Source: Candidatus Aegiribacteria sp. (lineage in GTDB: Bacteria; Fermentibacterota; Fermentibacteria; Fermentibacterales; JCC-6). From it: DNA of 55,642 nt. The notes below the pieces were generated by a model. It did no database searches. It saw nothing but the letters and a program-made list of their open reading frames with translations, and had not been told where the DNA came from. Each line of letters starts with the position of its first letter. Position 1 is the first letter of the stretch. The stretch is taken from positions 1 through 55,642 of the forward strand of contig JAIORS010000134.1 in NCBI GenBank assembly GCA_021108005.1, read 5' to 3'. Position numbers and translations under genes: made by a program. Of the stretch, positions 382 to 51,365 are shown one piece after another.

Positions 382-1866
382 TCAATTTCTCAACAGAATC
401 ATCCGCTTCGTGCAGTTGAATGAAGGGCCTTCTATCCTGCAGAAATACACACCCGGAGTGATACTGCGCCCTCTCCTGTCAGTCCCGTTCCAAACCGTAG
501 AATAAGCCCCGGTCGCCATAGGCTCGCTAATGAGTGTCGTCACTATTCCGCCGGTAATATCGTAGATTGAAAGGGACACCGTTCCGTCAACCCCCGACGG
601 AACATCAAAAGCAATCGTTGTTGAATAATTGAATGGATTGGGGCAGATGCTAATGCCGACTTGTTCAGGCGCTGAACCGGACTGCGGCTGCGAAACCGAT
701 GTCTCCGGACCCAGCTTTATCAGATAGATATTGTATTCCCCTGCAAAATAGTCGTACGTACTTCCGGCAACGATAAATCCACCATCCGCAGTTAAATCCA
801 CCGATCTGCCCCTATCAAGATTTTCTCCCCCTATGGTCTTTGACCATTCAGTATCACCGCTGTCGTCCGTTCTTAAAAGCCAGACGTCGAAATTACCGGC
901 TCCGAAGGATTCAGTGTAACCGGCAATGATATATCCTTCATCAACGGTTTGCCGTACCGAACAGCCGCAATCCTCTTCAACCCCGCCGAAAGTCCGTGTC
1001 CATACACCTCCACCGTCGCTATCTGTCTTAACCAGCCATACATCGTAATCACCTGAACCATAGGATCTGGTATCACCAGCCATAATGTAGCCGCCATCCG
1101 CAGTCTGCTGTACCGAATGACTGCGCTCGCAGCCGGTTCCTCCAAAGGTGTTCGTCCAGAGAGTATCACCAAGATTGTTGGTCTTTATCAGCCAGAAATC
1201 ACTGCTCCCCGCTCCGTAGGAATAGGTATCGGCAAGAACAATGTAACCGCCATCAACGGTCTGCTGAACCGACATGCCATTGTCGTAATCATCTGCTCCG
1301 AATATTCTTTCCCATTCGGAATCTCCACTGGAATCTGTTTTTATCAACCAGACATTCCAGCCTGCACCGAAGGAAGGTTGTATCATACCTGTAAGAATGT
1401 ATCCTCCATCAGTGGTCTGCTGTACCGATGTCGCCCAGTCCCAGAATGATCCACCAAATGTTTTTGTCCATAGAGTATCGCCTTCGTTATCGGTTCTTAT
1501 AAGCCAGATATCAAGACCGCCTGCTCCATAGGAACTGGTATAGCCAGCTATGATGTATCCCCCGTCTGTGGTTTGATCTACCGAGAATCCGCGGTCTTCT
1601 CCCACACCTCCGAAGGTTTTTGTCCAGAGGGTATCACCCAGATTGCTGGTTTTAATGAGCCAGACGTCAAAATTGCCTGATCCGAAGGAGTCAGTATCGC
1701 CTACAACGATATATCCGCCATCCGTTGTCTGCTGAACACACCTCCCGAACTCATAAATACCTCCACCGAAAATCTTTGTCCACTGCACATCCGGTTCTAT
1801 CCGGGCCGATGACATCGATGTTAGAATAGTTATTACACTGAATAAAAGTATCTTTCTTTTTCGCAT
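382..1866 (-). CDS. Secreted seven-repeat protein with C-terminal FlgD-like/type IX-like sorting domain
   Basis: This 494-residue protein begins with a signal peptide (MRKRKILLFSVITILTSMSSA). Seven repeats of about 55 residues follow, each with the pattern W-T-K-x-F-G-G ... S-V-Q-Q-T-x-D-G-G-Y-I ... G-D-Y-D-V-W-L-I-K-T. They probably form a beta-propeller-like fold. Residues from about 410 to the end look like an FCB-type sorting domain: NPFNYSTTIAFDVP, then LSIYDITG, then an ending in GVYFCRIEG and KRMILLR. The protein is likely exported and anchored at the surface; its binding target is unknown. A good ribosome binding site (AGGTGAAAGG) precedes the ATG. It is divergent from the secreted repeat protein starting at 2177, with which it shares an intergenic region and probably a biological context. 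Confidence 0.85.
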   Translation of the reverse strand: MRKRKILLFSVITILTSMSSARIEPDVQWTKIFGGGIYEFGRCVQQTTDGGYIVVGDTDSFGSGNFDVWLIKTSNLGDTLWTKTFGGVGEDRGFSVDQTTDGGYIIAGYTSSYGAGGLDIWLIRTDNEGDTLWTKTFGGSFWDWATSVQQTTDGGYILTGMIQPSFGAGWNVWLIKTDSSGDSEWERIFGADDYDNGMSVQQTVDGGYIVLADTYSYGAGSSDFWLIKTNNLGDTLWTNTFGGTGCERSHSVQQTADGGYIMAGDTRSYGSGDYDVWLVKTDSDGGGVWTRTFGGVEEDCGCSVRQTVDEGYIIAGYTESFGAGNFDVWLLRTDDSGDTEWSKTIGGENLDRGRSVDLTADGGFIVAGSTYDYFAGEYNIYLIKLGPETSVSQPQSGSAPEQVGISICPNPFNYSTTIAFDVPSGVDGTVSLSIYDITGGIVTTLISEPMATGAYSTVWNGTDRRGRSITPGVYFCRIEGPSFNCTKRMILLRN

Positions 1867-2176: not shown

Positions 2177-3979
2177 ATGAAAATTTTTCTTGCGCTTGTC
2201 ATGCTTGTCGGCATCTGTATAGCTGACGGCACAGAAACACAGACTGACTGGGTAGGTGGGCCTGGCACTCCAGGTCCAGTAACAACCTGGGGAACGCTGT
2301 TCGATGTATCGAGCGGTATATCCTGGCTGACAACAGGGGAAATCGGCCTGAGTTTAGAGCATAATATCTCATCATCATCTAACGGTCCAAGATGGGCAGT
2401 CTGTGGCGACATTGACGGAGATAGTGACATAGATGTTCTTGTTTGTGAATACTATGCGGATTCCCTTGTATGGTTCGAGAACATTGACGGTGACAGCTAT
2501 TTCTGGGAGCGTCACTTCATTGGTGCGGGTAACGATCCTCACACAGCCGCTCTTGCAGACATCGACAACGATGGTGACCTTGATGCAATTGCCGGCTATT
2601 ACTCCGGTGATTCCGTCGTCTGGTACGAAAACGACGGTACAGGTTCCGGATGGATTTCTCACATGGTCGTAGAGTCTCCATACGCTAACCAGGTCAGAAC
2701 ATTGATTGCAGCTCATATGAACGCTGACGCTTTTATTGATATTGTCGTACCCGCATACGCTTGCGACACGGTTGCCTGGTACGAGAATGACGGTGTTGGC
2801 GGTTTCAGCTGGACAAGACATAACATCTGCGCGACAAATGGGCCAAGGTGTGGAAACGTGGCCGATCTCGACAAAGACGGTTATCTTGATGTAGTGGCCG
2901 GTGCCTACTATGGTGACTCTCTGTCATGGTGGGAAAACGACGGAACAGGCCTCATCTGGACACATCACTGCATAAGCAGTTCCTATAACGGGGCAGGCCA
3001 TGCGTGGTTCGTTGATATTGACGGCGACACATACCTCGATGTCCTTTGCGCAGCAATGTCCGGTGACAGTCTCTGCTGGTTTGAAAACACTGATGACATC
3101 GGAACCAGCTGGGCCAGGCATACGATTACAACAATCGACTACCCGGTTTACTCCAGCTTCTACGACCTTGATCAGGACGGCGATCAGGATGTTCTTGTCT
3201 GTAGTCCTAATTTAGATGTTTCGTACTGGTTTGAGAACAATGGTACAGGAACCTCATGGGTCGAACACCTTATAACGGATGAATACAATGGTCCATACTT
3301 CGTTGCAGGCGTTGATATTAACCTCGACGGCGTGAACGAAGCTCTCATCTGTGACAACAGCAGCGACAGGGTTGACTGGTACGATCTGTTCGAAAGCACA
3401 GGTGTGCTGGAATCATCAATACTTGACGCACAGGAAGATCCGGACTGGAATACTATTGCCTGGACAGCAACAACACCGACGAACACTGATGCCATCTTCC
3501 AGCTGCGTAGTTCCGATAACTCAGCTGCAATGGGCTCCTGGTCCGCCGACATCACTTCTCCGGGCTCAATCGATTCGTATGTCAGTGACGGTGATAACTA
3601 CATTCAGTACAAAGCGATTCTCTCAACAACTGACGTGGGCGATTCTCCGGTAATTCCAATACTGCAGGATGTCACCATCGACTGGCTGTCAGTCGGTATC
3701 GCCGGCTCCAGCAGTCCCGCAGATGAATTCACTCTTAGTATAATATCTGCCAATCCCTGCTTCGGTGCTCCCGTCATCGCTTTCGATGTTCCCAATATCT
3801 GCAATGTTAATCTCAGCATCTTCGACATGTCCGGGCGCGTTGTGGCCAGGATAGCTGACGGAGAGATCGAAGCCGGTAATTATCAGGTTTGTATTGAAAA
3901 CCTGATTCCCGGTATCTATCACTGCAGGATGGAAGCTGGCGGATTTACCGATGTTAGAAGTCTTGTAATACTGAAATAG
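2177..3979 (+). CDS. Secreted FG-GAP/VCBS-like repeat protein with C-terminal sorting domain
   Basis: A 600-residue exported protein. The signal peptide is MKIFLALVMLVGICIA. At least six repeats carry an acidic, calcium-loop-like motif: DIDGDSDIDVLV, DIDNDGDLDAIAG, DLDKDGYLDVVAG, DIDGDTYLDVLC, DLDQDGDQDVLV and DINLDGVNEALI. Each is followed by a W-[FWY]-E-N motif. This is the signature of FG-GAP/VCBS integrin-type propellers, which usually bind calcium. A linker domain follows (about 410-515), then an FCB-type sorting domain from about 530, with LSIFDMSGRVVARI and an ending in GIYHCRMEAG. The start has AAAGGG upstream. A perfect hairpin follows the stop codon. The protein probably sits on the cell surface in adhesion or binding; the ligand is unknown. 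Confidence 0.88.
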   Translation: MKIFLALVMLVGICIADGTETQTDWVGGPGTPGPVTTWGTLFDVSSGISWLTTGEIGLSLEHNISSSSNGPRWAVCGDIDGDSDIDVLVCEYYADSLVWFENIDGDSYFWERHFIGAGNDPHTAALADIDNDGDLDAIAGYYSGDSVVWYENDGTGSGWISHMVVESPYANQVRTLIAAHMNADAFIDIVVPAYACDTVAWYENDGVGGFSWTRHNICATNGPRCGNVADLDKDGYLDVVAGAYYGDSLSWWENDGTGLIWTHHCISSSYNGAGHAWFVDIDGDTYLDVLCAAMSGDSLCWFENTDDIGTSWARHTITTIDYPVYSSFYDLDQDGDQDVLVCSPNLDVSYWFENNGTGTSWVEHLITDEYNGPYFVAGVDINLDGVNEALICDNSSDRVDWYDLFESTGVLESSILDAQEDPDWNTIAWTATTPTNTDAIFQLRSSDNSAAMGSWSADITSPGSIDSYVSDGDNYIQYKAILSTTDVGDSPVIPILQDVTIDWLSVGIAGSSSPADEFTLSIISANPCFGAPVIAFDVPNICNVNLSIFDMSGRVVARIADGEIEAGNYQVCIENLIPGIYHCRMEAGGFTDVRSLVILK

Positions 3980-4002: not shown

Positions 4003-4028
4003 AAGCGGCGGCCAGAAGGCCGCCGCTT
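4003..4028. terminator. Bidirectional terminator hairpin
   Basis: A perfect 11-bp stem (AAGCGGCGGCC at 4003-4013, GGCCGCCGCTT at 4018-4028) closes an AGAA loop. It sits between the convergent genes ending at 3979 (plus) and 4051 (minus). The uridine tract is weak on both sides, so termination efficiency is uncertain. Position and stem strength make the call. Confidence 0.75.
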
Positions 4029-4050
4029 CATTATCAGGTGAGATTTCGGA

Positions 4051-6144
4051 TCAGGCTCCCGTTGCTTTGAGTAAGGTATTACTCAATTCTTTTAGACTGA
4101 ATGGTTTTGCTATGGTAGCCGTGAATCCGTAATCAGAATAATTGGCCAATACAGGATTGTTCGAGTAACCGCTTGATACAATCACTTTAACATCAGGATC
4201 AATTTCAAGGAGTTCTGCTATTGCCTCTTCTCCTCCCATTCCTCCCGGAATAGTCAGGTCCATGATAACCGCGTCAAAGGAGTTTTTTGATTCCTTTGCG
4301 GCGGTGTAAACTTCTATTGCTTCCCGCCCGTCTTTAACAGCAAATGCCTCAAACCCCAGGCTGCCCAGCATTTCAACAGCAACATTCCTGACCATTTCTT
4401 CATCATCCATAACCAGTACGTGGCCCTTGCCTGCCTTTGGAGGTTCTTCATCCTTTATTACGGTTTCAGGCTCTTCTCTGGTTGCTGGAATATAGATGAT
4501 AAATGTTGTACCATGTCCCGGTTCTGACTCGACAGTTATCAAGCCATCATGTTTATTAATTATGGAATACGCAGTTGCCAGACCTAATCCGCTCCCTTTG
4601 TCCTTTGTTGTGAAGTATGGGTCAAATATCTTCAGAAGGTTTCCTTCAGGTATACCGACTCCCTGGTCATTTACGGTCACCATTACATACATTCTATCTT
4701 TCAGCGGAAGAACATGTCCTGTTATCTCCGCGATATTCTCTGCTCGAATGGTGAAAAGACCTCCGGCAGGCATTGATTGATGCGCATTGATCGTTAAATT
4801 CTCGATGACCTGTCTGAATTGCACCACGTCGATGTCAACGGCCCAGAGATCATCAGGCTGATTGTATTCAAAGCGGATGTTGGAACCGCTTAGAATAAAA
4901 TTCACAGAATCGGTAATTATCTCCGAAATCGAAGTAGTTGTTCTGAGAGGCAAACCGCCTTTGGAGAATGTGAGAAGCTTCTGAGTCAGTTCCTTCGCTC
5001 TGGTTGCTGCGCAATGAGCATTATGCAGAAACCTCAAAGCCTCACTTTCCGGGATTGAAAACGTCTTTGCCAGGTCAATATTGCCCAGTATTCCGGTTAG
5101 AATGTTGTTGAAATCATGCGCGATTCCACCGGCAAGCACACCAATGGATTCTATTCTCTCAATTCTCAAAAGCTCCATCTCCATCTTCTTACGTTCAGAA
5201 ATATCAAGCGCAACGATCTGAGCCCCGGCCCTTTCCGGATAAGCAAATGGTATGGCTACCATCTCTACATCGATAACGGAGCCATCAACCTTTTTGAACC
5301 TTCTCTCCGTCAGAGGGATTTCATGATGATTTCCCAACATCTCGGTTATTGAGCTTTTCACAGACTCGTAATCGTCCGGATGGATAATTTCCTGAAGTGG
5401 CTTTCCAATGATCTCGTTCGGACTTTCCGCGCCCAGAAGCTTTATCCCGGCATTATTCGCGAAGTTAAGCTTACTTTCATGGAAGATGAAGATGGATTCC
5501 GGTGAAGACTCAACAAGCCTTCGATACCTTCCCTCCGATTTCAGCAAAGCCTTTTCAGCTTCTTTGCGTCTGACAATATCGATAAACACACTCAGAGAGC
5601 TTTCAACAGTACTCCGGTCTTTCTCCTCAAAGGGGAAACGGAATATTTTATCCTCGGTACTATTGCCGATTAAGAGCGCGATTCCTTCATGCCGGTTGAA
5701 AGTCCACAGGATATATGGTGTTTCAATTGCACCGCAGAGAGCTCCAGCAATAGCGTCCGGCTCCGTTGTCGAGTTTACAAACAGAAATTCCGGTGCCCTG
5801 CCGGGTAGCTTGATTACCAGCTTAGTATCCTTTTTTAAACCAAGAGTGTATTCTGAAACGAAACTATCAGTTACCTCATCGTATCGAAAAATCAAGATAC
5901 GATCAGCCGACATGCTGCTCATGATAGCCTGGAAGAAGTGGTTTTCAATACTCTCGATAGAGACATCACTGTTGATCAGATTGTATGTCTTCAGAATAAG
6001 CGAATTGGTGGTTCGTGATCGCCTGACATCTTTTCGAACTTCGGTAAGTTCCTGCTGTAATCTTAATATCCGTTGGCCAAGCTCATCACATTGCCGGCGA
6101 TAGTAATCTCTCTCCGCTTTAATATCATTCATAGTTCTATCCAT
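4051..6144 (-). CDS. Soluble hybrid sensor histidine kinase (coiled coil - GAF-like - PAS - HisKA - HATPase - REC)
   Basis: This 697-residue protein has no membrane segment, so it should be cytoplasmic. In order it shows a coiled coil (about 5-45), a GAF-like region (about 55-200), a PAS domain (about 205-320, RYRRLVESSPESIFIFHE and IHPDDYESV), and a HisKA dimerisation domain with the phospho-acceptor His in GGIAHDFNNILTGILGNI. A HATPase domain follows, with N-box ENLTINAHQ, G1 DQGVGIPEG and G2 GSGLGLA. A C-terminal receiver domain (about 575-695) has the acidic pair in VLVMDDEE, the phospho-acceptor Asp in AVIMDLTIPGG and the Lys in TIAKPFS. Its ATG overlaps the stop of the upstream FIST gene by 8 bases, so the two are translationally coupled. 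The input is probably what FIST binds; the output partner is not visible. Confidence 0.93.
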   Translation of the reverse strand: MDRTMNDIKAERDYYRRQCDELGQRILRLQQELTEVRKDVRRSRTTNSLILKTYNLINSDVSIESIENHFFQAIMSSMSADRILIFRYDEVTDSFVSEYTLGLKKDTKLVIKLPGRAPEFLFVNSTTEPDAIAGALCGAIETPYILWTFNRHEGIALLIGNSTEDKIFRFPFEEKDRSTVESSLSVFIDIVRRKEAEKALLKSEGRYRRLVESSPESIFIFHESKLNFANNAGIKLLGAESPNEIIGKPLQEIIHPDDYESVKSSITEMLGNHHEIPLTERRFKKVDGSVIDVEMVAIPFAYPERAGAQIVALDISERKKMEMELLRIERIESIGVLAGGIAHDFNNILTGILGNIDLAKTFSIPESEALRFLHNAHCAATRAKELTQKLLTFSKGGLPLRTTTSISEIITDSVNFILSGSNIRFEYNQPDDLWAVDIDVVQFRQVIENLTINAHQSMPAGGLFTIRAENIAEITGHVLPLKDRMYVMVTVNDQGVGIPEGNLLKIFDPYFTTKDKGSGLGLATAYSIINKHDGLITVESEPGHGTTFIIYIPATREEPETVIKDEEPPKAGKGHVLVMDDEEMVRNVAVEMLGSLGFEAFAVKDGREAIEVYTAAKESKNSFDAVIMDLTIPGGMGGEEAIAELLEIDPDVKVIVSSGYSNNPVLANYSDYGFTATIAKPFSLKELSNTLLKATGA

Positions 6145-7345
6145 TTGTGAATATTGTCAAAACTCCTGTCCAGTCCAGCGGGCGGCTGCGGCCAAGGAGC
6201 GGTGCGATCTCCACACCTGAGTAGAAGCCCAGGAATGGCATACTTCCACCAACTGTCTTCCTGACGACGTCAGCCTCCTCGGTCTCAGAACCGCTGAAGC
6301 TGGAAGCTCTACCCGCGCAGTCAATATAGAGGGCGAACTTCGCTTTTCCCAGGTCAACGGTTTCGAGCAGTTCTGTGGTTCCCTTATTAACGGATTCAAC
6401 CATCAACTGATTGTCCCGCGACATTACCTGAACAATATCTCCCTGCTGGAAATCCGCCTCGAAGATAGTTACAGAACCCTCTTCAGGGTTTGAATCAATA
6501 ATAAGGCGATTTACATACATCTGTTCATTGAAGGGGGAGTACGGTTCTCCATACTTCTTACCGAGAGTAACTATGAAAGGGATTTTTGAGTTGCATATAT
6601 CTTCAGGGTCAATCCCCAGCATCTCGCTGAAAACATCCGTTGCGGGACGGCCATCAAGTTCGTAGAGGACAGGGCCATCGATCTTTGTTATTTCCTTAAA
6701 TGAGCTGATAGGTTTGCATCCATGCATTATGGTAGTATGTGGAGTCAATTCCCCCGAAAGGATTATCCCGATAACTGAATGCTTGACTACTCCGCGGCCA
6801 TCGAAAACGAAACTGGGTGAAAATGTGAAATCTCCAACCAGGCCCGAACCGATTATATTCAGAGTATCTTTCTTAAGGCCAGAATATACACCGTCCATCA
6901 ACGTGCTGCCGGTATAGAGTACAGGGGGCGGTGTTGATCGAAGGTTGGTGTAAAAAATGAGTACTGTGTCGCCTTCGTTCGTCAATTCATCCAGAGCGAG
7001 ACCGATCTCTTTTCCAGCCTTGAACTCACCCGCTTTTAAATTGTTATTCACCACTAAGCCGGGTGCAGTGAAATCGGAAGTGAATGCGGCAAGGCCGCAT
7101 TCGTAGCCCGTGTATCCAAGTGAGTCGTTCGTAATGATTCCAGCCGTTGCCCCGCCGTAAACCGCTACGTCACCAAGCTCGGATCTTATTCCCGTGAGAA
7201 CACTGTCAGGTTCATGCCTGCCGCCGCAGAACGCCAGCACCCACGAGACGGATTCCTTGTTTTTGAACTGGTTCTTCGCCAGGCCGGCGGCTTCCCTGCC
7301 GGCCTTTTCCGAATCCGTATCGCTGCTGATACCTACATAAGCCAT
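6137..7345 (-). CDS. FIST N/FIST C sensory domain protein
   Basis: This 402-residue soluble protein has the layout of FIST_N followed by FIST_C: an N-terminal part with AFCGGRHEPDSVLTGIRSEL and VYGGATAGI, and a C-terminal part with PFLGFYSGVEIAP near the end. FIST domains have been proposed to bind small ligands, amino acids among them, and are often fused or linked to kinases. Here the protein has no output domain of its own, but its stop codon lies inside the first codons of the kinase gene. It probably supplies the sensory input of that kinase. AAGGAG lies a few bases upstream of the ATG. The gene begins 112 bases after the stop of the B12-type radical SAM gene on the same strand, so it may be part of that transcript. 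Confidence 0.9.
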   Translation of the reverse strand: MAYVGISSDTDSEKAGREAAGLAKNQFKNKESVSWVLAFCGGRHEPDSVLTGIRSELGDVAVYGGATAGIITNDSLGYTGYECGLAAFTSDFTAPGLVVNNNLKAGEFKAGKEIGLALDELTNEGDTVLIFYTNLRSTPPPVLYTGSTLMDGVYSGLKKDTLNIIGSGLVGDFTFSPSFVFDGRGVVKHSVIGIILSGELTPHTTIMHGCKPISSFKEITKIDGPVLYELDGRPATDVFSEMLGIDPEDICNSKIPFIVTLGKKYGEPYSPFNEQMYVNRLIIDSNPEEGSVTIFEADFQQGDIVQVMSRDNQLMVESVNKGTTELLETVDLGKAKFALYIDCAGRASSFSGSETEEADVVRKTVGGSMPFLGFYSGVEIAPLLGRSRPLDWTGVLTIFTNG

Positions 7346-7457
7346 TTTCTCCTTCTTCCAGATTAATATTTCTCCTAGATGAACTCAGGTAAACCCCTAC
7401 TCAGTAAATCGTTTAGTAATCAATCGAATCAGTATCCTCCAGATAAATGCCATCCTT

Positions 7458-8936
7458 TCAAAATCCCTTGCGGTATTCCTTCTCCAGGTTCTTCAATCTG
7501 TACCGATTATATCCGGATATTCTATATATTAAATCTCTTCGCATAATGTTAGTCCAGAGAGGCTCCTTCAGCCTGAGAACCGAGTACAACCTCTTAAGAG
7601 TTCGCGCCAGAAGGGTACTCTCCGAATTATCCTGAAGGTTGATATAGTTCGAGTGGTTGATTACTTCCCTGTTTATCATGTAAAGCATTTCTTTTATACT
7701 GATTTCCTTCGGTTGAAGCCAGACCGGCCTCAATAGATCCGAATTAACAGAAATTTGACCGGTTGTAAGAGCATAGCCGTAAAGTGGCGCACCAGGTAAC
7801 ACTCTTATACCGCTTGTAATGAAAACAAGATCCCGTCTGCCGATGTTCTTATCGATGAACCTGAAGGTCTCTTTGATAGTGGACTCGTTCTCACCCGGCC
7901 CACCGAAGAGGAAATACCAGACCACCGGTATACCGCTATCGTTTAAAACCCTGGCGGCTAGTTCAACACTTTCCACTGTGAAATTCTTACCCAGTGTTTT
8001 CAGCATTTTCTCAGAACCTGATTCGGGCGTACAGGACACTTCTATGAAATTTGCCTCCTTCATCAGTCCCGCCAGCTCCGCGGTAACGGCTGACGGATTG
8101 ATCCCCATGGTATTGAAAGAGGTCCTGATCTTTCTCCTGATAATCTCCCGGCAGATGGCAATGGCATGGTCCAGCGGAATGTTGAATGTGGAATCGGTGA
8201 ATTCTATCACATTGGGCTTACAGTTCGCTACAATATCCTCGATCTCGTCAACAATTAATGCAGGATCTCTCAGTCTGTAGCTGCATCCCTCGATTTCGTT
8301 GTAAACACAGTAGCTGCATTTCAGGGCGCAGCCACGTTTAGTCTGAATGGAGTACGGAGCGTAATCAAGGCTGTACTTTTTCCAGTCGACCCACCTGTAC
8401 ATCCGAGGCAAAGCCAGGTCATCGAGGTTCTCAATTCTCCGGACGGGATTCCTTACAATCCTTTCCTTTTTTCTGTACAGAAGCCCGTCGATAGAAGAGA
8501 TATCCGATCCGGATTCAACCCTGCGCGCGAATTCCACAAAAGCGTTCTCGCCTTCCCCGCATATGGCGTAATCCACACCGAGATAATCCATGATCCGTTC
8601 TGGCATGATGCTTACAGCTGAGCCTCCTATAACGAGTGGCATTGACGCAGCATTTCGTGCAGGATCAACGATATTCTTCTTGACATCCTCCAGGTAAAAG
8701 CAGGGGGACTGCTGGTCAACATTGTCAATATTCCTGATCGATATTCCCACCAGATCCGGCGCGAACTGATTGATCCTGTCTGCTATCTCGGATGGCGGAT
8801 TGCCGGAAAAAAGTATGTCCAGCAGTTGAACTTCAAAGCCTTCCCGTTCAAGGCTTGAAGCAACATAGCAGGCTCCGAGAGGAGGAACCGGCCAGGGATG
8901 TCTCTCTCTATTTGAAGAGATCAGAAGTATCTTCAC
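7458..8936 (-). CDS. B12-binding-type radical SAM protein
   Basis: This 492-residue protein begins with a Rossmann-like domain of the kind found in cobalamin-binding radical SAM enzymes (MKILLISSN, then PPLGACYVASSLEREGF, PDLVGISI, and IGGSAVS; about 1-135). The classical DxHxxG cobalamin motif is not evident, as in many class B relatives. The iron-sulfur motif CxxxCxxC is in GCALKCSYCVYNE, at about residues 200-215. Later blocks include EFTDSTFN and FLFGGPGE, expected of the radical SAM barrel. Its start overlaps the stop of the upstream radical SAM-acyltransferase gene by four bases (ATGA), so the two products should act together. The substrate cannot be read from the sequence. Enzymes of this type carry out methylation, ring formation or oxidation on unactivated carbon. 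Confidence 0.88.
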   Translation of the reverse strand: MKILLISSNRERHPWPVPPLGACYVASSLEREGFEVQLLDILFSGNPPSEIADRINQFAPDLVGISIRNIDNVDQQSPCFYLEDVKKNIVDPARNAASMPLVIGGSAVSIMPERIMDYLGVDYAICGEGENAFVEFARRVESGSDISSIDGLLYRKKERIVRNPVRRIENLDDLALPRMYRWVDWKKYSLDYAPYSIQTKRGCALKCSYCVYNEIEGCSYRLRDPALIVDEIEDIVANCKPNVIEFTDSTFNIPLDHAIAICREIIRRKIRTSFNTMGINPSAVTAELAGLMKEANFIEVSCTPESGSEKMLKTLGKNFTVESVELAARVLNDSGIPVVWYFLFGGPGENESTIKETFRFIDKNIGRRDLVFITSGIRVLPGAPLYGYALTTGQISVNSDLLRPVWLQPKEISIKEMLYMINREVINHSNYINLQDNSESTLLARTLKRLYSVLRLKEPLWTNIMRRDLIYRISGYNRYRLKNLEKEYRKGF

Positions 8937-10924
8937 GGTTGGTCCATTCTCATTTCCGGGTAGTAACTTGAAAGTGTCTGTTTTTCGTGCGCTGCCATAC
9001 CCTCGAGGAGATTCGGCTTTATTCCGCTTAAACTGTTAATATACTCAATGCCGTGGGGGTTTCGCCGGTCATTCAGTTCACGCATTGTCTGCTCTTTGAT
9101 AATCTGATGCTCACCACCATAGAAATACTGATACAGTTGCGGATCGTTTATTCGTACCAGTTCCCTGCCTGTTATTAGATTGAGCCTCATAGGAACAGCT
9201 GGCGCTCCGTTCACTTTTTCGAACGGTTTTGCATCTCCGATCTTTTCAAAATAGAATTTCCTCTGATAATAGGTACAATGACGCGGATGTATCATCATGC
9301 AGAAATCGGTACAGCCCAAAAGGTCATGACCTAGAATAAACGCCTTTCTGAACAGAGACAGCAGAATCCCCCATCTTTCTCCATTCGAGAGGTCCGCATC
9401 TACAGCAAGAGCAGACAGTTCACAAACAAGAGAACCAGTTTCCCGGATTCTTGCGATCTCTTCACTGAAAAGCTCGTCGATTGGAAGCTTTCCATTAGTA
9501 TCTCTTACAAGAGTAAGTGTGCCGCAGACTTTCCCATCGTTTTTTACTATCAGTAAATGACTTGAAGGTAGAATATCGTGAAAACCAATTCTCATCGAAG
9601 ATGAATTTGATTGTTGAAGGCCGGTTTGGAAATACGTTCTATATACTAAATTGAATGCATCCTTCATCTCATCAATATTCCTGGTAAGTCTGGAATCCGC
9701 GAATTCACTGTTTTTATTTCCATCTTTGGAATCGATACTTTCACCTTCGCAATCATTTTCAATGATCATGTCGTCCACTGAAGCAGCGATATCTCCTATT
9801 GCAGTTGTACTATCACCTGAGTTTGAACATCTGTTACGAATCCGTGCAATCGACAGGCGCAGCCTTGCCAGAAAGGAGAAAAGCACCGCTTGAAAGGATC
9901 CTTTTAACATCTGTGGTGACTGGTTACAGCCGGCGCATACTTCTCCGGGTAAATACTGCTCTTTGTATTGCATAAGAGTATCTATCGATTCATACAGAAT
10001 ATTGCCCAGCGGATTTCGCACTGATTGATCGTTACAGCAGATAGAACTTCCATCTGCGGCAATAAAGAAATTGGCGTTCCAGAGACATGGGAATCTGAAA
10101 CACCTGACAAGGTCTCCTATCTCAGATGTACTATGGAAGAACCGCTTAAGCACAAGCTGCATTCTGATTTTCACTTCATTGACGGTCTGCCCGTTGTAGC
10201 GTCTGAAGAAATCGCTGTACATCTCTACTGCCGCAACGGAGTTGCGCAGCAAGCCGGAACGGTTACTTGTCGCGGGGAAAAGAACAAGTTCTATCTCTCT
10301 AAGTTCAACCCTTCGCGCGATTTCAGTTAAACTGTTAATCGTTTCGGGAAAATCACGTCTAATGATCTCAGTCTCTGGGGGGGAGATGTGCAAATAGAGT
10401 CTGGAAAGATATCCGCCCGCGCGGAGAGCCATCGCCTTTTCAATACCCGGCAGCACTCCGGACAGCAGGGCTTCTCCCTGCCCGCTGTCACCCTTCATTA
10501 TCAACCCGTACGATTCGGGATTGCTGGTCGGGAAAGAGATGATCAACGAAATGCAATTGTCTGCGAAGGGAGCCAATATCTCTGATTTATTTAACGATGA
10601 ACCGTTCGTGACAACGGAAATTTCCGGTGGAGGTACGATGGATGCATCCCATTCCCTGAGCATCTCGCCGAACATCCTTAACCTGTCAGCAAACTCCGGA
10701 TGCAGTGTCGCCTCGCCATCACCGGAATTAGCTACATAACGCACATATATACCGGATCCGGCAGCTTCAAGTATTCGCTCGATAAGGGTTCTTGTTACAA
10801 TATACGGCTGAAATTCTTTCGGGCCTCTGTAGTTCGTTTTATTAATACCGCACAACCTGCAGGAGTAGTTGCATATTCCATGAACAAGGCTGTTATTGAT
10901 CGATATGGGCCGACGCGTTCGCAT
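8933..10924 (-). CDS. Radical SAM/SPASM-like protein fused to a FeeM-like N-acyl amino acid synthase domain
   Basis: This 663-residue protein has two parts. The N-terminal half is a radical SAM domain with C18, C22 and C25 (ICNYSCRLCG) and a SPASM-like auxiliary cluster region at about 270-330 (CFRFPC, SICCND, GEVCAGC). The C-terminal part, about 430-620, resembles the GNAT-like N-acyl amino acid synthase FeeM and PEP-CTERM-associated acyltransferases. It reads AFNLVYRTYFQTG, then HLLIVKNDGKVCGTLTLV, LVCELSALAV, MIHPRHCTYYQRKFYFEKIG and NGAPAVPMRLNL. FeeM-type enzymes transfer an acyl chain from acyl carrier protein to an amino acid or related amine. A low-complexity acidic linker (about 370-420) separates the parts. 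The fusion suggests modification and acylation of one substrate. Domain calls are good; the substrate is unknown. Confidence 0.87.
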   Translation of the reverse strand: MRTRRPISINNSLVHGICNYSCRLCGINKTNYRGPKEFQPYIVTRTLIERILEAAGSGIYVRYVANSGDGEATLHPEFADRLRMFGEMLREWDASIVPPPEISVVTNGSSLNKSEILAPFADNCISLIISFPTSNPESYGLIMKGDSGQGEALLSGVLPGIEKAMALRAGGYLSRLYLHISPPETEIIRRDFPETINSLTEIARRVELREIELVLFPATSNRSGLLRNSVAAVEMYSDFFRRYNGQTVNEVKIRMQLVLKRFFHSTSEIGDLVRCFRFPCLWNANFFIAADGSSICCNDQSVRNPLGNILYESIDTLMQYKEQYLPGEVCAGCNQSPQMLKGSFQAVLFSFLARLRLSIARIRNRCSNSGDSTTAIGDIAASVDDMIIENDCEGESIDSKDGNKNSEFADSRLTRNIDEMKDAFNLVYRTYFQTGLQQSNSSSMRIGFHDILPSSHLLIVKNDGKVCGTLTLVRDTNGKLPIDELFSEEIARIRETGSLVCELSALAVDADLSNGERWGILLSLFRKAFILGHDLLGCTDFCMMIHPRHCTYYQRKFYFEKIGDAKPFEKVNGAPAVPMRLNLITGRELVRINDPQLYQYFYGGEHQIIKEQTMRELNDRRNPHGIEYINSLSGIKPNLLEGMAAHEKQTLSSYYPEMRMDQP

Positions 10925-11324
10925 ATATTGTTATCCTGTGAATCGAGATATGTATTTATACATAGACAGTCAACATAATAAAGCAAATATTCCATTCCGC
11001 TATTCAACCCCTAAACAACAGATTTCGTACCCCTAGAATTCAATACCTTTATTATACGAATAAATTGCGTACAGACAAATCACCTGTACAAAACGAACTT
11101 CGCGAATCCTCCTGGTAACACGTTCTGATAACTGAACGAAGAAAACGTGATTCTCAAACAGATATCCGGATAGTATGTATCATGCACCTATATTTGTATT
11201 TATTGCTATCGTGGAGTTGGATGATACGTCGATTATATTCGAGGTTGACTGTACACTGCGTCTGGAAGTAGTGTAACAAAGTGATAAATGCATATTGAAC
11301 ATATAAACCGGAAGAACAAGCAAA
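10925..11324. other. 400-base intergenic region with inverted repeats between divergent genes
   Basis: This spacer separates the radical SAM-FeeM gene (minus) from a membrane histidine kinase gene (plus). It holds a 6-bp inverted repeat with a 9-base gap (GTACAG at 11069, CTGTAC at 11084) and a looser nested one near 11119-11150 (CACGTTC ... GAAC ... AACGTG). It also holds two copies of CCCCTA about 22 bases apart near 11010-11036. These could be operators. I see no gene or structured RNA. Confidence 0.4.
11245..11274 (+). promoter_or_regulatory. Candidate sigma-70-type promoter of the membrane histidine kinase
   Basis: TTGACT (11245-11250) and TAGTGT (11269-11274) are separated by 18 bases, giving a leader of about 45 bases before the ATG at 11325. 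The same TAGTGT -10 element recurs with a consensus TTGACA in front of the gene at 37627. Confidence 0.4.
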
Positions 11325-14084
11325 ATGAAAGCGGAGAAGAAATACACTGTTTATAGAAGTCTTGTTTCAATTTCCTTCGGTCTGCTTGGGTTTGCGGCAA
11401 ATTTCGTTACTATAGATTTTTCTTTCCCTCCATATACCGCGACGGTTCTGATAGGTCTTTTGTTTCCGTTACTGATAACGCTTGCCTGGGGATGGAAATA
11501 CGGTTTGCTGTCCGCTTTGGCCGGTGGTTGTCAAACGATGTGGTGGCTGTGGGGTCCTGCCAACGGTTATGCCACATTGTTCGTTGTGCCGCCATTTACA
11601 ATCTGGATAGTATGGCATGGTTATTTTGCGAACCTTCGCAGAAAACAGAAGAAATGTAAATGGTGGCTGAGCATGTACGCTGTTGAATTTCCATTTCGAA
11701 TACTGAACACAATTAATCTCTATACATTATCAAGATGGGCTATTACATGGAATCCACCTGCCTGGGGGTTGGCTCCGGCTTCATCAAACGTAATCCCGAT
11801 GAGCTTTTCACACTTCGTAGTAATAAAGCAGTTCGTTGTAGCTTACATAATTCTGCTGTTGGCGGACGTACTATTGAACCTTGGTATCGTAAGAAAATTC
11901 CTCAAATTAAGAAAAAGCATTTCATACAGGAAAACAGCTCATATCATAGGCTTTGCGCTTCTGATCGGCGCTTTCTTCTGGATTGTTGACAGCTTTCTCG
12001 GATACTATACATTTCATTCCGGCAGTTCTTTTCTCGATTTGTTTGCTCTGAGAATTCCATCTTACGTACTGTACATGCGAGCCGCGCTTATTCTTGCCTG
12101 TCTGACAGGGGGAGTAGTAGCATCAGGGTTCCTCCGCAAACAGCACGAAAACGAAGTCATTCTGCGGGAAAGCGAGGAAAAATTAAGGTTAATCAGTGAT
12201 TCCGCAGAAGACTCGATAATAATGATGAACAATGATGGAAATGTCTGTCATTGGAACAAAGCGTCAGAGGAAATGTTCGGTTATAAAGCGGAAGACATTA
12301 TTGGAAAGAATCTTCACGCGACTCTTATGCCGCCACGTTTTATTGAAGTCTTTCGAAAGGGTTTCAGGAAATTCGCGGATTCTGGCAAAGGGCCTGCTAT
12401 CGGGAAAACAATGGAAATGGTGGCCTTGAAGAAGGACGGGACAGAATTTCCGGTAGAGCTGTCAATCTCTTCCGTGAGAATAAAGGATAAATGGGGCGCG
12501 GTGAGCATTGTAAGAGATATCACCGAGCGAAGGAAAGCAACGGAAGCGCTTCGCGAGAGTGAGAAACGCTTCCGGCAGGTATCCGAATGCGCGGAGGAAT
12601 GGATATGGGAAGTTGATGCAAATGCATTGTATACCTACGCAAGCCCTGTAGTGGAGAAGCTGATTGGATACAAACCTGAGGAAATCGTGGGAAAGAAGCA
12701 TTCGTACGATCTATTCCACACTGATGATATTGAGCCGCTGAAAAAAGCAACCCTTGAAATATTTTCTGAAAAGAAACCACTTTTCAGATTTCCGAATCGT
12801 AACGTTCATAAAAACGGAAACATCGTATGGCTCCTGACAAGCGGCCTTCCAATCCTTGACGAAGAAGGAAACCTGCTAGGTTATCGAGGCACGGACATCG
12901 ACATCACCGAACAAAAGAAATTGGAAAGACAGAAGGAGATACTGCAGAAAAAACTATTCAAGACGGAGAAACTGGAAACCATAGGTACTCTGGCAGGCGG
13001 AATCGCTCACGATTTCAATAATATCCTTACTCCAATTATCGGTTATACCGACATGGCTCTGTCGAACCTGCCATCTGATAATCCTGTCCGCACAGATCTT
13101 GAAGAGATCCTTAATGGAGCCAACCGCGCTAAAGATCTTGTTAATCAGATACTGACATTCAGCCAGCAGATGGAAAAAGAAAAAGAACCGCTTCGACTGC
13201 ACCTGATTGTAAATGAAGCGTTAAAACTGATGCGTCCATCCATCCCGGCAACGATTGAAATCAAGCGGAATATCGACGAATCCTGTCCGGTGATTCTTGC
13301 CGACCCGATACAGATGCATGAGGTTGTTGTGAATTTATGTACTAACGCTTACCAGGCGATGGAAAGGGAAGGAGGAGTAATTACTATTGAATTGAAACCT
13401 GCATATGTTGATAAAACCATTGCAGATTCTTATCCTAACCTCAAGCAGGGGAAATACATTCGTCTGACTGTCAGCGATACGGGTCACGGAATAATCGACG
13501 ATATACTGGGTCATATTTTCGAACCATTTTTCACAACTAAAGGCTATAGCAAGGGCAGTGGTATGGGCCTTTCGATAGTACATGGCATTGTACAGAGCCA
13601 TGACGGAGAAATCATTGTATACAGCGAACCGGGCAAAGGCACGGCATTTCATATATATCTCCCTGTTACAGAAGAGGCTGAAAAACCAGTTAAGGTAAAA
13701 GACGATTCTCTTCATTACGGACATGAGGCGATTCTTATCGTTGATGATGAGGAAGCTGTTACAAGGATGCTGGAAAAAATTCTAAGGCAGCTTGGCTACG
13801 AAGTTGATGCTTTTAATACTCCTGCTGACGCACTGGAGTCATTTCGCAAAGCTGAAAACAAATACGATATTGTACTCACCGATTTAACCATGCCAGGAAT
13901 GACCGGACTGGATCTGGCAGAAGAAATAAGAAAACTTCATTCGGAGATTCCTATAGTACTTATGACAGGTTACGGTCTGCAAAATCATGAAGATATCCGG
14001 CGGAAGAATGTCAGTAAGATAGTTGGGAAACCAATTGATATTCGGGAATTGACTTCAACTATCCGAGACATACTGAGAAGCTGA
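11325..14084 (+). CDS. Membrane hybrid histidine kinase (multi-TM sensor - PAS - PAS - HisKA - HATPase - REC)
   Basis: This 919-residue protein starts with about 275 residues holding six to eight hydrophobic segments, an integral-membrane sensor of a kind I cannot name. PAS 1 spans about 285-405 (DSIIMMNNDGNVCHWNKASE) and PAS 2 about 410-535 (WIWEVDANALYTYASP). HisKA follows, with the phospho-acceptor His in GGIAHDFNNILTPIIGY. The HATPase has N-box NLCTNAYQAM, G1 DTGHGI and G2 GSGMGLS. A receiver domain closes the protein at about 795-915, with DDEE, Asp in VLTDLTMPGM and Lys in VGKPID. The kinase core is close in type to that of the 4051-6144 gene, so the two may be paralogues. The ribosome binding site (GGAAGA) is weak. 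The gene is divergent from the radical SAM-FeeM gene. Confidence 0.93.
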   Translation: MKAEKKYTVYRSLVSISFGLLGFAANFVTIDFSFPPYTATVLIGLLFPLLITLAWGWKYGLLSALAGGCQTMWWLWGPANGYATLFVVPPFTIWIVWHGYFANLRRKQKKCKWWLSMYAVEFPFRILNTINLYTLSRWAITWNPPAWGLAPASSNVIPMSFSHFVVIKQFVVAYIILLLADVLLNLGIVRKFLKLRKSISYRKTAHIIGFALLIGAFFWIVDSFLGYYTFHSGSSFLDLFALRIPSYVLYMRAALILACLTGGVVASGFLRKQHENEVILRESEEKLRLISDSAEDSIIMMNNDGNVCHWNKASEEMFGYKAEDIIGKNLHATLMPPRFIEVFRKGFRKFADSGKGPAIGKTMEMVALKKDGTEFPVELSISSVRIKDKWGAVSIVRDITERRKATEALRESEKRFRQVSECAEEWIWEVDANALYTYASPVVEKLIGYKPEEIVGKKHSYDLFHTDDIEPLKKATLEIFSEKKPLFRFPNRNVHKNGNIVWLLTSGLPILDEEGNLLGYRGTDIDITEQKKLERQKEILQKKLFKTEKLETIGTLAGGIAHDFNNILTPIIGYTDMALSNLPSDNPVRTDLEEILNGANRAKDLVNQILTFSQQMEKEKEPLRLHLIVNEALKLMRPSIPATIEIKRNIDESCPVILADPIQMHEVVVNLCTNAYQAMEREGGVITIELKPAYVDKTIADSYPNLKQGKYIRLTVSDTGHGIIDDILGHIFEPFFTTKGYSKGSGMGLSIVHGIVQSHDGEIIVYSEPGKGTAFHIYLPVTEEAEKPVKVKDDSLHYGHEAILIVDDEEAVTRMLEKILRQLGYEVDAFNTPADALESFRKAENKYDIVLTDLTMPGMTGLDLAEEIRKLHSEIPIVLMTGYGLQNHEDIRRKNVSKIVGKPIDIRELTSTIRDILRS

Positions 14085-48778: not shown

Positions 48779-49040
48779 CTTTCACTCCTTTTTTGTTTAA
48801 TGGATCGTAACGAACCCTGTCAAAAGGCTTATTTCTTTATAATACTACTATACTAAATCGTATCCGTTTCTGCATCTTTTTTATCAACAGAATAATTGTA
48901 ATACTATTTAGAACCTTTACCGTCAATGAATGATGCTAATAAAACAGCCTGTTGAACAGGGTAATTGCTATGAAGAATCCGGAAATACTGGATTGATTAT
49001 CAGAAACCACTTCACCATTATCAGACAAGGAGACCATACT

Positions 49041-51365
49041 TTGAAAAATGTAGCATTGAATACAAGTCGATGGAGTAGATGTACTTCGTCCGGAGTCCTT
49101 CTGCAGATGTTTGTTCTTCTTGCAGTGACATCGATAGCCGCTGCCTATTCAGGGAGTCTGGTGGTAAGTCTCCATTCCGGAGAGTATGAAATAGTTCAAA
49201 ATCTCGATGGTCACAGAATAGAGATGGAAGGCTTCAGCCAGCTGATGACCCCCGGAAAGCCCATGCTTCCCATGAAACGATTCCAGATTCTGCTTCCCCC
49301 GGGCGCCAGAGCGGTATCTGTGGACGTGATCGGTTCCGGTGCAGATGAATTACCCTCTTATTACGACATTCAGCCATTCGAGGGAGTTCTCCCTCTTCTC
49401 AACACACCGTATCTGGAAGAAGAGCTTGTCAGGCTTGATGAAGAGTGGCATGCAAACCACGAAATCGTTTACCTCAGTGACCAACCGTATCCTGACAGGA
49501 TCGCCTGGCTATCCGGAGCAGGCACCCTTCGCAAATACTCTTATGCATCGATAGCTTTCTGCCCGATCACCTATCATCCGATTTCCCGGCGGCTTATTTA
49601 CCATGATCGTGTTGATGTAGCCATTAACTACACGCTGCCTGACGAGGGAGATGCCGAGGCGGAGCATATAGAGCGACTCCTTGCAGACTGCGTTGCCGAT
49701 GAAAGGGCAGAGCGGCTTTTTATCAACTACCGGACATTCGCCGGACAATACACTTCCAGCAGAATTGAGGCGCAATTTGACGATCTGTACGATTACGTTA
49801 TCGTAACCACCAGCGACCTGATCGGCTCTGTTACATCATCCGCTTTTCCCGCATGGAAGGCGGAACTCGGGTACAGTCTGAAAACCGTTCTTACAACCGA
49901 CCCTTTGATAGCTGATCAGCCGGGTGTGGATCTGGAGGAGCAGATAAGGAACTTCCTCAGGGAGTACTACGGGCTATGGGGAATTGAATATGTACTCTTT
50001 GTAGGTGACTATGCCACAGTCCCGATGCGTATATGCTATCCTGACTCGTCTTTTCACGTATATGATCCGTCCAATCCAAATCTTTTCGCGCCAGGTACGC
50101 CCACCGACCAGTACTACACAGACTTGTCCTATCCTGATTCGCTGTCCTGGGATCTGGACGGAGATGGATTTGTCGGTGAGTACAACCAGGATCTTCCCGA
50201 CTTTCTTCCGGAGATCTATGTTGGAAGGATTCCGGTGAATGACACCGGTCGTATTACGTACACCCTTAATAAAACCGTTACTTTTGAGCAGGATGCCGGG
50301 AGCTGGAAAAAGAATGTTCTCCATCCGACCACCATTCTGTTTTTTGAGAATCAGAATTTCAGCGGATATCCGTTTATTGACGGAGCTTCTGTGATAGACT
50401 CCATCGAAACCGGTCTTATGGACGGCTGGAATATCACACACATGAGTGAACAGTTTGGTATCGTGACATCTCTGTTCGATTGGCCAGCTGTGAGTGAGGG
50501 TGTATTTATCAATCATTGGCGCAACGGCCAGTTTGCGGTGGTCAACTGGTCAGGACATGGCTGGTCTAACAGTGTCTCTCGGTCGGTTTGGGAATGGGAT
50601 GACGGTGATGGTGTTCCCGAATCGAGTAATGGAGAGTTTTATAACCTCTCGTTGCTTAACACTGTTACTTCAACCAATCTGGATGATGATTATCCTTCGG
50701 TTGTATTTGCGATCTCGTGCAATGTGGGTTATCCTGAACCAAACGCATGGGGGAACCTGGGCATTGACCTTGCAACTAAACCGGGGTCTGGCTCAGCGGT
50801 AGGCATGGTGAGCGCTTCGAGACCTTCGGCTATCTCGTCAGACTGGAAAAATAACCCCGGCGGAGCGGAGCAGATATGCTTCGATTTCAACCGTTACCTT
50901 ATAAGTGAAGGCGAGCATGTGGGAGTTGCCCTGTACGACGGCAAGTACGATGCTACGACCGTTTACGGCTGGTCACATATCTACGAGTACGGGAATCTAT
51001 ACAATGTCAACCTTTTTGGTGATCCATCTCTGGAGGTTGCAGGCTACCCGACCGGTATTGAGGGGGGGGAAACAGCTCCGGGAATGATGCCCCCTTCTCT
51101 TTTCCCTGCATATCCCAATCCGTTCACGTCATCGACAGCATTACGTCTTACCCTGCCGACTTCAAGCAAGGTGCTTGCTGTGGTTTACGATATAAGCGGC
51201 AGGCAGGTTGCATCGCTTATGGAAGAAATGCGTCCCGCCGGAGAGCTGCTGCTCTTCTGGGATGGCAGAGACAACTCCGGAGAATCGCTTGGGCAGGGTA
51301 TCTATTTTGCAGTTATCACAGTTGGTAATCATCAGGCAGTTCGGAGAATGATGCTGTTAAGGTGA
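49041..51365 (+). CDS. Gingipain-like C25 peptidase with propeptide and sorting domain
   Basis: A protein of 774 residues from the chosen TTG at 49041, which has AAGGAG eight bases upstream and gives a clean signal peptide (LLQMFVLLAVTSIAAA). A propeptide of the C25 type follows (PGKPMLPMKRFQILLPPGA). The catalytic domain has His506 in NWSGHGWSN and Cys560 in VFAISCNVGY, the C25 dyad. The C-terminal 85 residues are a sorting domain: PAYPNPFTSSTALRL, then VVYDISGRQVASL and GIYFAVITVG. In Bacteroidetes, C25 enzymes are Arg/Lys proteases (gingipains) or the PorU sortase. Since this one carries its own sorting tail, I favour a cargo protease. Specificity is not predictable. Confidence 0.9.
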   Translation: MKNVALNTSRWSRCTSSGVLLQMFVLLAVTSIAAAYSGSLVVSLHSGEYEIVQNLDGHRIEMEGFSQLMTPGKPMLPMKRFQILLPPGARAVSVDVIGSGADELPSYYDIQPFEGVLPLLNTPYLEEELVRLDEEWHANHEIVYLSDQPYPDRIAWLSGAGTLRKYSYASIAFCPITYHPISRRLIYHDRVDVAINYTLPDEGDAEAEHIERLLADCVADERAERLFINYRTFAGQYTSSRIEAQFDDLYDYVIVTTSDLIGSVTSSAFPAWKAELGYSLKTVLTTDPLIADQPGVDLEEQIRNFLREYYGLWGIEYVLFVGDYATVPMRICYPDSSFHVYDPSNPNLFAPGTPTDQYYTDLSYPDSLSWDLDGDGFVGEYNQDLPDFLPEIYVGRIPVNDTGRITYTLNKTVTFEQDAGSWKKNVLHPTTILFFENQNFSGYPFIDGASVIDSIETGLMDGWNITHMSEQFGIVTSLFDWPAVSEGVFINHWRNGQFAVVNWSGHGWSNSVSRSVWEWDDGDGVPESSNGEFYNLSLLNTVTSTNLDDDYPSVVFAISCNVGYPEPNAWGNLGIDLATKPGSGSAVGMVSASRPSAISSDWKNNPGGAEQICFDFNRYLISEGEHVGVALYDGKYDATTVYGWSHIYEYGNLYNVNLFGDPSLEVAGYPTGIEGGETAPGMMPPSLFPAYPNPFTSSTALRLTLPTSSKVLAVVYDISGRQVASLMEEMRPAGELLLFWDGRDNSGESLGQGIYFAVITVGNHQAVRRMMLLR

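Follow-up and report, generated by a model that had tools for sequence, protein, structure and literature searches.

Four consecutive genes of Candidatus Aegiribacteria sp., here called A, B, C and D, form an inherited, selected and jointly transferred unit, and we give about an even chance to the reading that this unit makes a small molecule and senses the same molecule. They lie in a stretch of 55,642 nucleotides (contig JAIORS010000134.1; G000:C134 in our numbering, hereafter the window) of G000, a metagenome-assembled genome (MAG) of 3.2 Mb belonging to the phylum Fermentibacterota; among named organisms, Candidatus Aegiribacteria, Sabulitectum and other Fermentibacteraceae are nearest to it. 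All four are on the minus strand. Gene A (positions 8933-10924, 663 amino acids) encodes a radical S-adenosylmethionine (radical-SAM) protein with a C-terminal FeeM-type N-acyl amino acid synthase domain, gene B (7458-8936, GTG start, 492 amino acids) a B12-binding radical-SAM enzyme, gene C (6137-7345, 402 amino acids) a sensor protein with FIST_N and FIST_C parts, and gene D (4051-6144, 697 amino acids) a soluble hybrid histidine kinase. A and B overlap by 4 nt (8933-8936), C and D by 8 nt (6137-6144), and a gap of 112 nt (7346-7457) separates B from C; the coordinates of the open reading frames (ORFs) agree exactly with the layout given in a preliminary description of the window, which had proposed that the first two genes make a compound and the last two sense it. 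The conclusions below rest on MAGs, some of them incomplete, and on a sample of genomes.

Gene A was found in 15 of the 42 Fermentibacterota genomes, with two further matches that were weak and partial. The preliminary description had regarded a lack of conserved gene order among relatives as the result that would tell against one unit; the gene-neighbourhood comparison found the order A-B-C-D conserved, B following A and C-D following B in all 15 genomes wherever the contig continues. The whole order stands on one contig in nine genomes (G000, G032, G028, G025, G019, G012, G011, G023 and G022, the last two counted although the contig ends within one of the genes) and in two pieces in G015, G017, G018 and G024. 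The flanking genes differ among the groups and make up at least four distinct contexts, therefore the linkage has been kept across several settings. Within the cassette genomes the B-C gap measures 1-223 nt (1 nt in G012, 9 nt in G023) and the C-D spacing ranges from -29 to +7 nt, which suits a single transcript. Five genomes (G011, G015, G023, G024 and G028) encode the two halves of A, radical-SAM and FeeM, in neighbouring genes of their own, and FeeM is fused to B in a 766-residue ORF of G024; these fusions and fissions point to one pathway. G024 carries two cassette types, L105 (contig C100) and L116 (contig C73), which match the window at about 85% and 72% identity, respectively; the fusion of FeeM with the B12 radical-SAM enzyme is in the second type, and one of the copies could be contamination.

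In the phylum sample every FeeM domain (15 genomes) lies in the cassette. A profile search with A in 385 genomes found no radical-SAM/FeeM protein in the 343 genomes of other phyla, and the same protein searched against plasmids returned FeeM-like domains only, none covering 80% of A. Among eight FeeM loci examined in other phyla, no neighbour with a CX3CX2C motif was seen within about 1.5 kb. The strongest FeeM matches outside Fermentibacterota came from a tandem pair of FeeM-type genes with unrelated surroundings (G271, L125:10720-12616).

All four genes are under purifying selection, with ratios of nonsynonymous to synonymous divergence (dN/dS) of 0.09-0.28, and the synonymous divergence (dS) is near or above 0.5 between many of the 15 cassette genomes. 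Since the order recurs in 15 genomes and dN/dS is low in all four genes, the arrangement is far beyond chance. For the question of transfer the tree of YgiQ, encoded by a neighbouring gene, was used as a control, which is the tree of one gene and not a species tree. Genus g1 as one clade was not rejected by YgiQ (p 0.374) and was rejected by the trees of A (p 0.028), B (p 0.021), C (p 0.0014) and D (p 3e-43). The YgiQ protein of G000 is 56.5% identical to those of the g3 genomes G028 and G032, and for the proteins of the cassette the identity between G000 and the same two genomes is 77-88%, except FeeM (64-70%) and the kinase core (75-77%). On these comparisons the simplest reading is a transfer of the entire cassette between genera.

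Gene A matched the Pfam families Radical_SAM (6.7e-8) and FeeM (2.7e-40). Its FeeM domain (residues approx. 422-582) belongs to PF21926 by a score of 138.2 bits against a cut-off of 27, and it has in common with FeeM the motifs GT, LP, E, P.H..YY and APA. The closest solved protein by profile is FeeM itself (2g0b, 7.5e-9), and a Foldseek search with the AlphaFold model of A also gave 2g0b as the best match, followed by the N-acyl homoserine lactone (AHL) synthase BjaI among GNAT proteins. The models are only partly reliable, the predicted local distance difference test (pLDDT) being 55.5 for A, with good values over FeeM, and 56.0 for the FIST protein. By these likenesses the FeeM half would probably transfer an acyl group from an acyl carrier protein (ACP) to an amino acid or amino group. 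The N-terminal half belongs to the radical-SAM superfamily and has the conserved cluster motif CX3CX2C at C18/C22/C25 (residues 18-25). Five more cysteines (280, 296, 297, 330 and 333) are invariant and give a pattern like a SPASM or twitch tail. No SPASM model reached its cut-off on A: Pfam SPASM did not match, and spiroSPASM gave an E-value of only 0.023.

Gene B matched the B12-binding (5.4e-21) and Radical_SAM (1.5e-23) families, and its CX3CX2C motif (C203/C207/C210, residues 203-210) is invariant wherever this region is present. The nearest named family is TIGR04072, the B12 radical-SAM proteins of lipid biosynthesis; the score of 314.9 bits is below the equivalog cut-off of 360, thus B is not a member. 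The best solved relative is the tryptophan C2-methyltransferase 6wte.

FIST domains have been proposed to bind small ligands. Gene C has both halves of such a protein (Pfam FIST 1.1e-23, FIST_C 2e-21), and its best fold match is the FIST domain of FBXO22 (8ua6, 8ua3). His208, Cys210 and Cys343 of C are invariant, the last one within the FIST_C part. The FIST domain of FBXO22 has a reactive cysteine, Cys326, which binds aldehydes covalently (PMC13316043); the likening of Cys343 to it, made with the residues unaligned, is only a lead. Identity with the nitric oxide (NO) sensor NosP (NF041558) was tried and rejected, the score being 29.2 bits against an equivalog cut-off of 450. In the segment of approx. 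residues 175-285 (window positions approx. 6491-6823) the relatives fall into two or more types, G023, G018 and G012 on one side and G011, G015, G017, G022, G009 and G021 on the other, with identities as low as 44% inside proteins that are otherwise 85-100% identical. This segment is a candidate region for ligand or partner specificity. The FIST frame of G018 (L100:7776-8984) has a single in-frame TAG at roughly one quarter of its length, and is either a pseudogene or contains a sequence error.

Gene D contains PAS, HisKA (His343), HATPase_c and Response_reg domains by Pfam. Its first 200 residues matched no Pfam family, and no recognised membrane or sensor domain precedes the PAS domain; a model made of residues 1-175 finds cassette kinases only, so this N-terminal region is specific to the cassette. 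The FIST gene adjoins a soluble kinase gene in all 16 genomes with a cassette-type FIST (in one of them across a contig break), and together with the co-evolution described below this agrees with a FIST-regulated kinase pair of the NosP-NosK kind. Five other FIST loci were examined in the phylum, two in G000 and three in its relatives, and in each of the five a kinase gene lies directly downstream. The FIST paralogues of the phylum are 22-30% identical to those of the cassette.

How the parts of the unit have evolved relative to each other was followed in nine genomes of genus g1, in which the cassette occupies two loci; residues 205-697 of the kinase were taken as the core and residues 1-175 as the N-terminus. 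The core follows locus and lineage, and the clade of the second locus (locus B) has a support of 100/100 in its tree. The same clade is rejected by the kinase N-terminus (p 0.005) and by the FIST protein (p 5e-7). The identities of the N-terminus and of FIST are correlated (Mantel r 0.88, p 0.002; without G019 r 0.62, p 0.01), and the N-terminus is uncorrelated with its own core (r 0.06) and with the PAS domain next to it (r 0.01). Sliding profiles of identity, with trees built for each part, place a recombination breakpoint zone at approx. codons 175-205 of gene D (5530-5622, minus strand), drawn from the relatives and not from the window alone; the switch is seen in two comparisons, G019 with G012/G009/G021 and G011/G015 with G017/G022/G021. 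Compared with G012, G019 has identities of 88 and 90% in the flanking genes and approx. 81% in the kinase core, and everything from FeeM to the kinase N-terminus belongs to a divergent type (FeeM approx. 50%, B 67%, FIST 59%, kinase N-terminus 55%). It is well supported that FIST is exchanged with the kinase N-terminus as a single module to which the core does not belong. Such exchange of both, apart from the core, is what one would expect if they set the specificity of a receptor.

We infer the chemistry, the binding of the product by FIST, the contact of FIST with the kinase N-terminus, the export and the output of a system that makes and senses one molecule, and its working may be pictured as follows. 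By radical chemistry the radical-SAM half of A and the B enzyme would alter an amino acid or an acyl chain; a fatty acyl group supplied by acyl-ACP would be joined to an amino group by the FeeM half. The product would be an acylated amphipathic molecule which could be bound by the FIST protein; this in turn would dock on residues 1-175 of kinase D and set its autophosphorylation, the signal running through the PAS, HisKA and receiver domains and on to a partner whose gene lies elsewhere. The proposal of the preliminary description is strengthened by the existence of one unit, by the cassette-specific FeeM domain and kinase N-terminus and by the joint exchange of FIST with this N-terminus, and is not proven by them.

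Several observations weigh against this reading. The N-terminus and FIST are adjacent, so their joint exchange could be a matter of linkage alone, and linkage contributes to it because they are neighbours. The coupling of the sensor to the enzymes is incomplete: the correlation of the kinase N-terminus with B (r 0.72, p 0.04) falls to a non-significant 0.26 without G019, and that with FeeM is non-significant with G019 (p 0.087) and becomes -0.20 without it. The FIST proteins of G011 and G015 are 90% identical, but their FeeM domains are only 58% and their B proteins 75% identical; G011 has changed its enzymes and not its sensor, and there is no strict coupling between the types of the two. Strict co-variation of synthase and receptor, which rested mainly on G019 and vanished without it, was therefore not upheld, and a match of synthase type to receptor type is only suggestive. 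The core of B is deleted in G009 (remnant 299-491) and G021 (remnants 1-107 and 302-488), the gene being still in place, and B is frameshifted near residue 425 in G032. The four-gene unit encodes neither an exporter nor a response regulator. The known ligands of FIST proteins are heme and NO (PMC8846402, PMC12570481).

Also against strict coupling is G016, which keeps C and D at the chromosomal place corresponding to the window and has no A or B. Its DNA is 85% identical to the window up to 58 nt upstream of the FIST gene, and identity sets in again at position 14034; the 6.6 kb between, with A, B and a divergent PAS-kinase gene (11325-14084), are absent. Both remaining genes are intact, with dN/dS against G000 of 0.12 for FIST and 0.18 for the kinase, and the branches of G016 are not longer than those of G000 for FIST and exceed them only a little for the kinase. 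As a receiver without a synthase, G016 is like those genomes in other signalling systems that have a receptor only, and it would equally fit a sensor with other inputs.

The explanation that ranks next is of the latter kind, and we consider it possible, if on the whole rather doubtful: an external or redox cue (heme, NO, an electrophile or some other metabolite), sensed by FIST and the kinase, switches on the production of a modified acyl-amino acid which serves as a lipid, surfactant or antibiotic and is not the ligand of the sensor. Such an operon would agree with the NosP-type FISTs, heme-binding proteins that signal NO to a kinase (PMC12570481), heme and NO being the FIST inputs for which a review finds direct evidence (PMC8846402). 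The other FIST proteins examined in the phylum precede kinases without these enzymes, thus the pair would be a general sensor; the loose coupling of enzyme and sensor types and the selected pair of G016 also speak for such an operon. However, C lies outside NosP by NCBIfam (29 bits against 450), and the FISTs and kinase N-termini of the cassette form a type of their own that, G016 excepted, occurs only beside these enzymes. For a cue that does not vary, heme or NO for example, exchangeable sensor types should be unnecessary, and a sensor serving this operon alone should decay after the loss of A and B, which it has not done in G016.

A ribosomal peptide encoded nearby as the acylated, radical-modified substrate would make the unit a lipopeptide signalling system, and we hold this to be improbable. 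The SPASM-like cysteines of A, the presence of SuiB, an enzyme of ribosomally synthesized and post-translationally modified peptides (RiPPs), at rank 50 of the Foldseek list for A, the activity of B12 radical-SAM enzymes in RiPP pathways too and the weak match of B to TIGR03975 would all fit it. Yet no shared short ORF was seen upstream by eye (a systematic short-ORF search was not made), only 25-30 nt precede A in G025 and G019, and no NCBIfam RiPP model reaches its cut-off. The least probable case, very unlikely in our view, is that an unrelated biosynthetic pair and a FIST-kinase pair are merely adjacent and carried along by transfer, which the movement between genera makes feasible and the separation of the pairs in G016 illustrates, but which is opposed by the order kept in 15 genomes and several settings at dS near or above 0.5 for many, the nearly touching B and C of G012 and G023, the fusions and the co-transfer, and the absence from the phylum sample of any A without C and D.

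Making and sensing of one molecule remains the reading that we prefer. The further claim, that the unit represents a new class of small-molecule communication, is more tentative, and we place it somewhat short of even: it would have a synthase of radical-SAM, FeeM and B12 radical-SAM parts, FIST and the kinase N-terminus as exchangeable specificity types on a constant core, carriage between Fermentibacterota genera, and receiver-only genomes such as G016. If true, a FIST receptor is genetically tied to a defined synthase, which would lead directly to a new FIST ligand; we know of no signalling system suggested earlier for Fermentibacterota. The exchange pattern is a testable map, since the response should follow FIST and residues 1-175 of the kinase.

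Around the unit, a possible promoter (TTGTCT-16-TATAAT, 11051-11078, minus strand) was recognised by consensus match only; it is the best sigma-70-like site of its strand and lies upstream of gene A, in a region where such matches are only slightly in excess (17 compared with 12.2 in shuffled sequences). At the other end a GC-rich, terminator-like hairpin with a weak T tail (4005-4030, minus strand, 11-bp stem, -27.3 kcal/mol) stands 3' of gene D, between it and the convergent gene 2177-3979. An Rfam scan of the four-gene unit found no RNA family. The divergent gene at 11325-14084 (plus strand) encodes a PAS-PAS hybrid kinase and shares a 400-nt upstream region with gene A. A stretch like TTTAGGGGTTGAAnRGCGGARTGGA upstream of A (window 10925-11060, L101, L107) occurs in G000 and G032 and more faintly in G028, and is possibly the site of a regulator. 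Elsewhere in the window, 48930-51365 (plus strand) encodes a C25 (gingipain-type) peptidase with a FlgD-like C-terminal domain, and several further proteins have tails like those of type IX secretion; 382-1866 (minus strand) encodes a protein with internal repeats (delta-60-like) and a tail like FlgD or type IX secretion substrates, 82% identical to the protein at the same place in G016.

Among known systems, the FeeM domain of the cassette is like FeeM/NasY in its motifs and in its best fold match, 2g0b. It differs in being fused to or standing beside a radical-SAM enzyme, followed by a B12 radical-SAM enzyme; the partners in the described FeeM clusters are ThiF-like and nitroreductase proteins (PMC12479983), and in the literature searched radical-SAM and FeeM chemistry were not described together. 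With LuxI-type AHL synthases it has the GNAT-like fold in common, BjaI being among the Foldseek matches, but it is much closer to FeeM and the unit has no LuxR-type receptor.

The ComQXPA system is similar in having synthesis genes beside a kinase with a variable N-terminus and a conserved catalytic part. The agr system is a further pherotype system of this kind. In ComP the N-terminal part varies and the cytoplasmic, catalytic part is conserved (PMC4008528), and the mosaic of the cassette kinases is like this pattern and like specificity swapping of the ComQXP type. Unlike ComQXPA, the cassette is not peptide-based as far as could be seen, it has a soluble kinase with a separate FIST receptor, and its enzymes and sensor are incompletely coupled.

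The sensor pair itself is closest to NosP-NosK (NahK) and VpsV-VpsS, in which a soluble FIST protein is likewise encoded beside a soluble kinase without a recognised N-terminal sensor domain. NosP, which binds heme/NO, regulates its neighbouring kinase NosK, and NosK is without a recognised sensor domain (PMC12570481); VpsV was proposed as the sensing partner of VpsS in the quorum sensing of Vibrio cholerae (PMC4398556). In contrast to the cassette, the described NosP/VpsV units are without biosynthetic enzymes and often contain a cyclic di-GMP response regulator, which the cassette does not. The preliminary statement that no described system with this gene set was known holds for the enzymes joined to the pair and not for the pair of FIST and hybrid kinase, which is established (PMC12570481, PMC4398556). 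Since such pairs are known, and since every other FIST examined in the phylum precedes a kinase, the novelty of the unit lies in the joining of the enzymes to the sensor pair.

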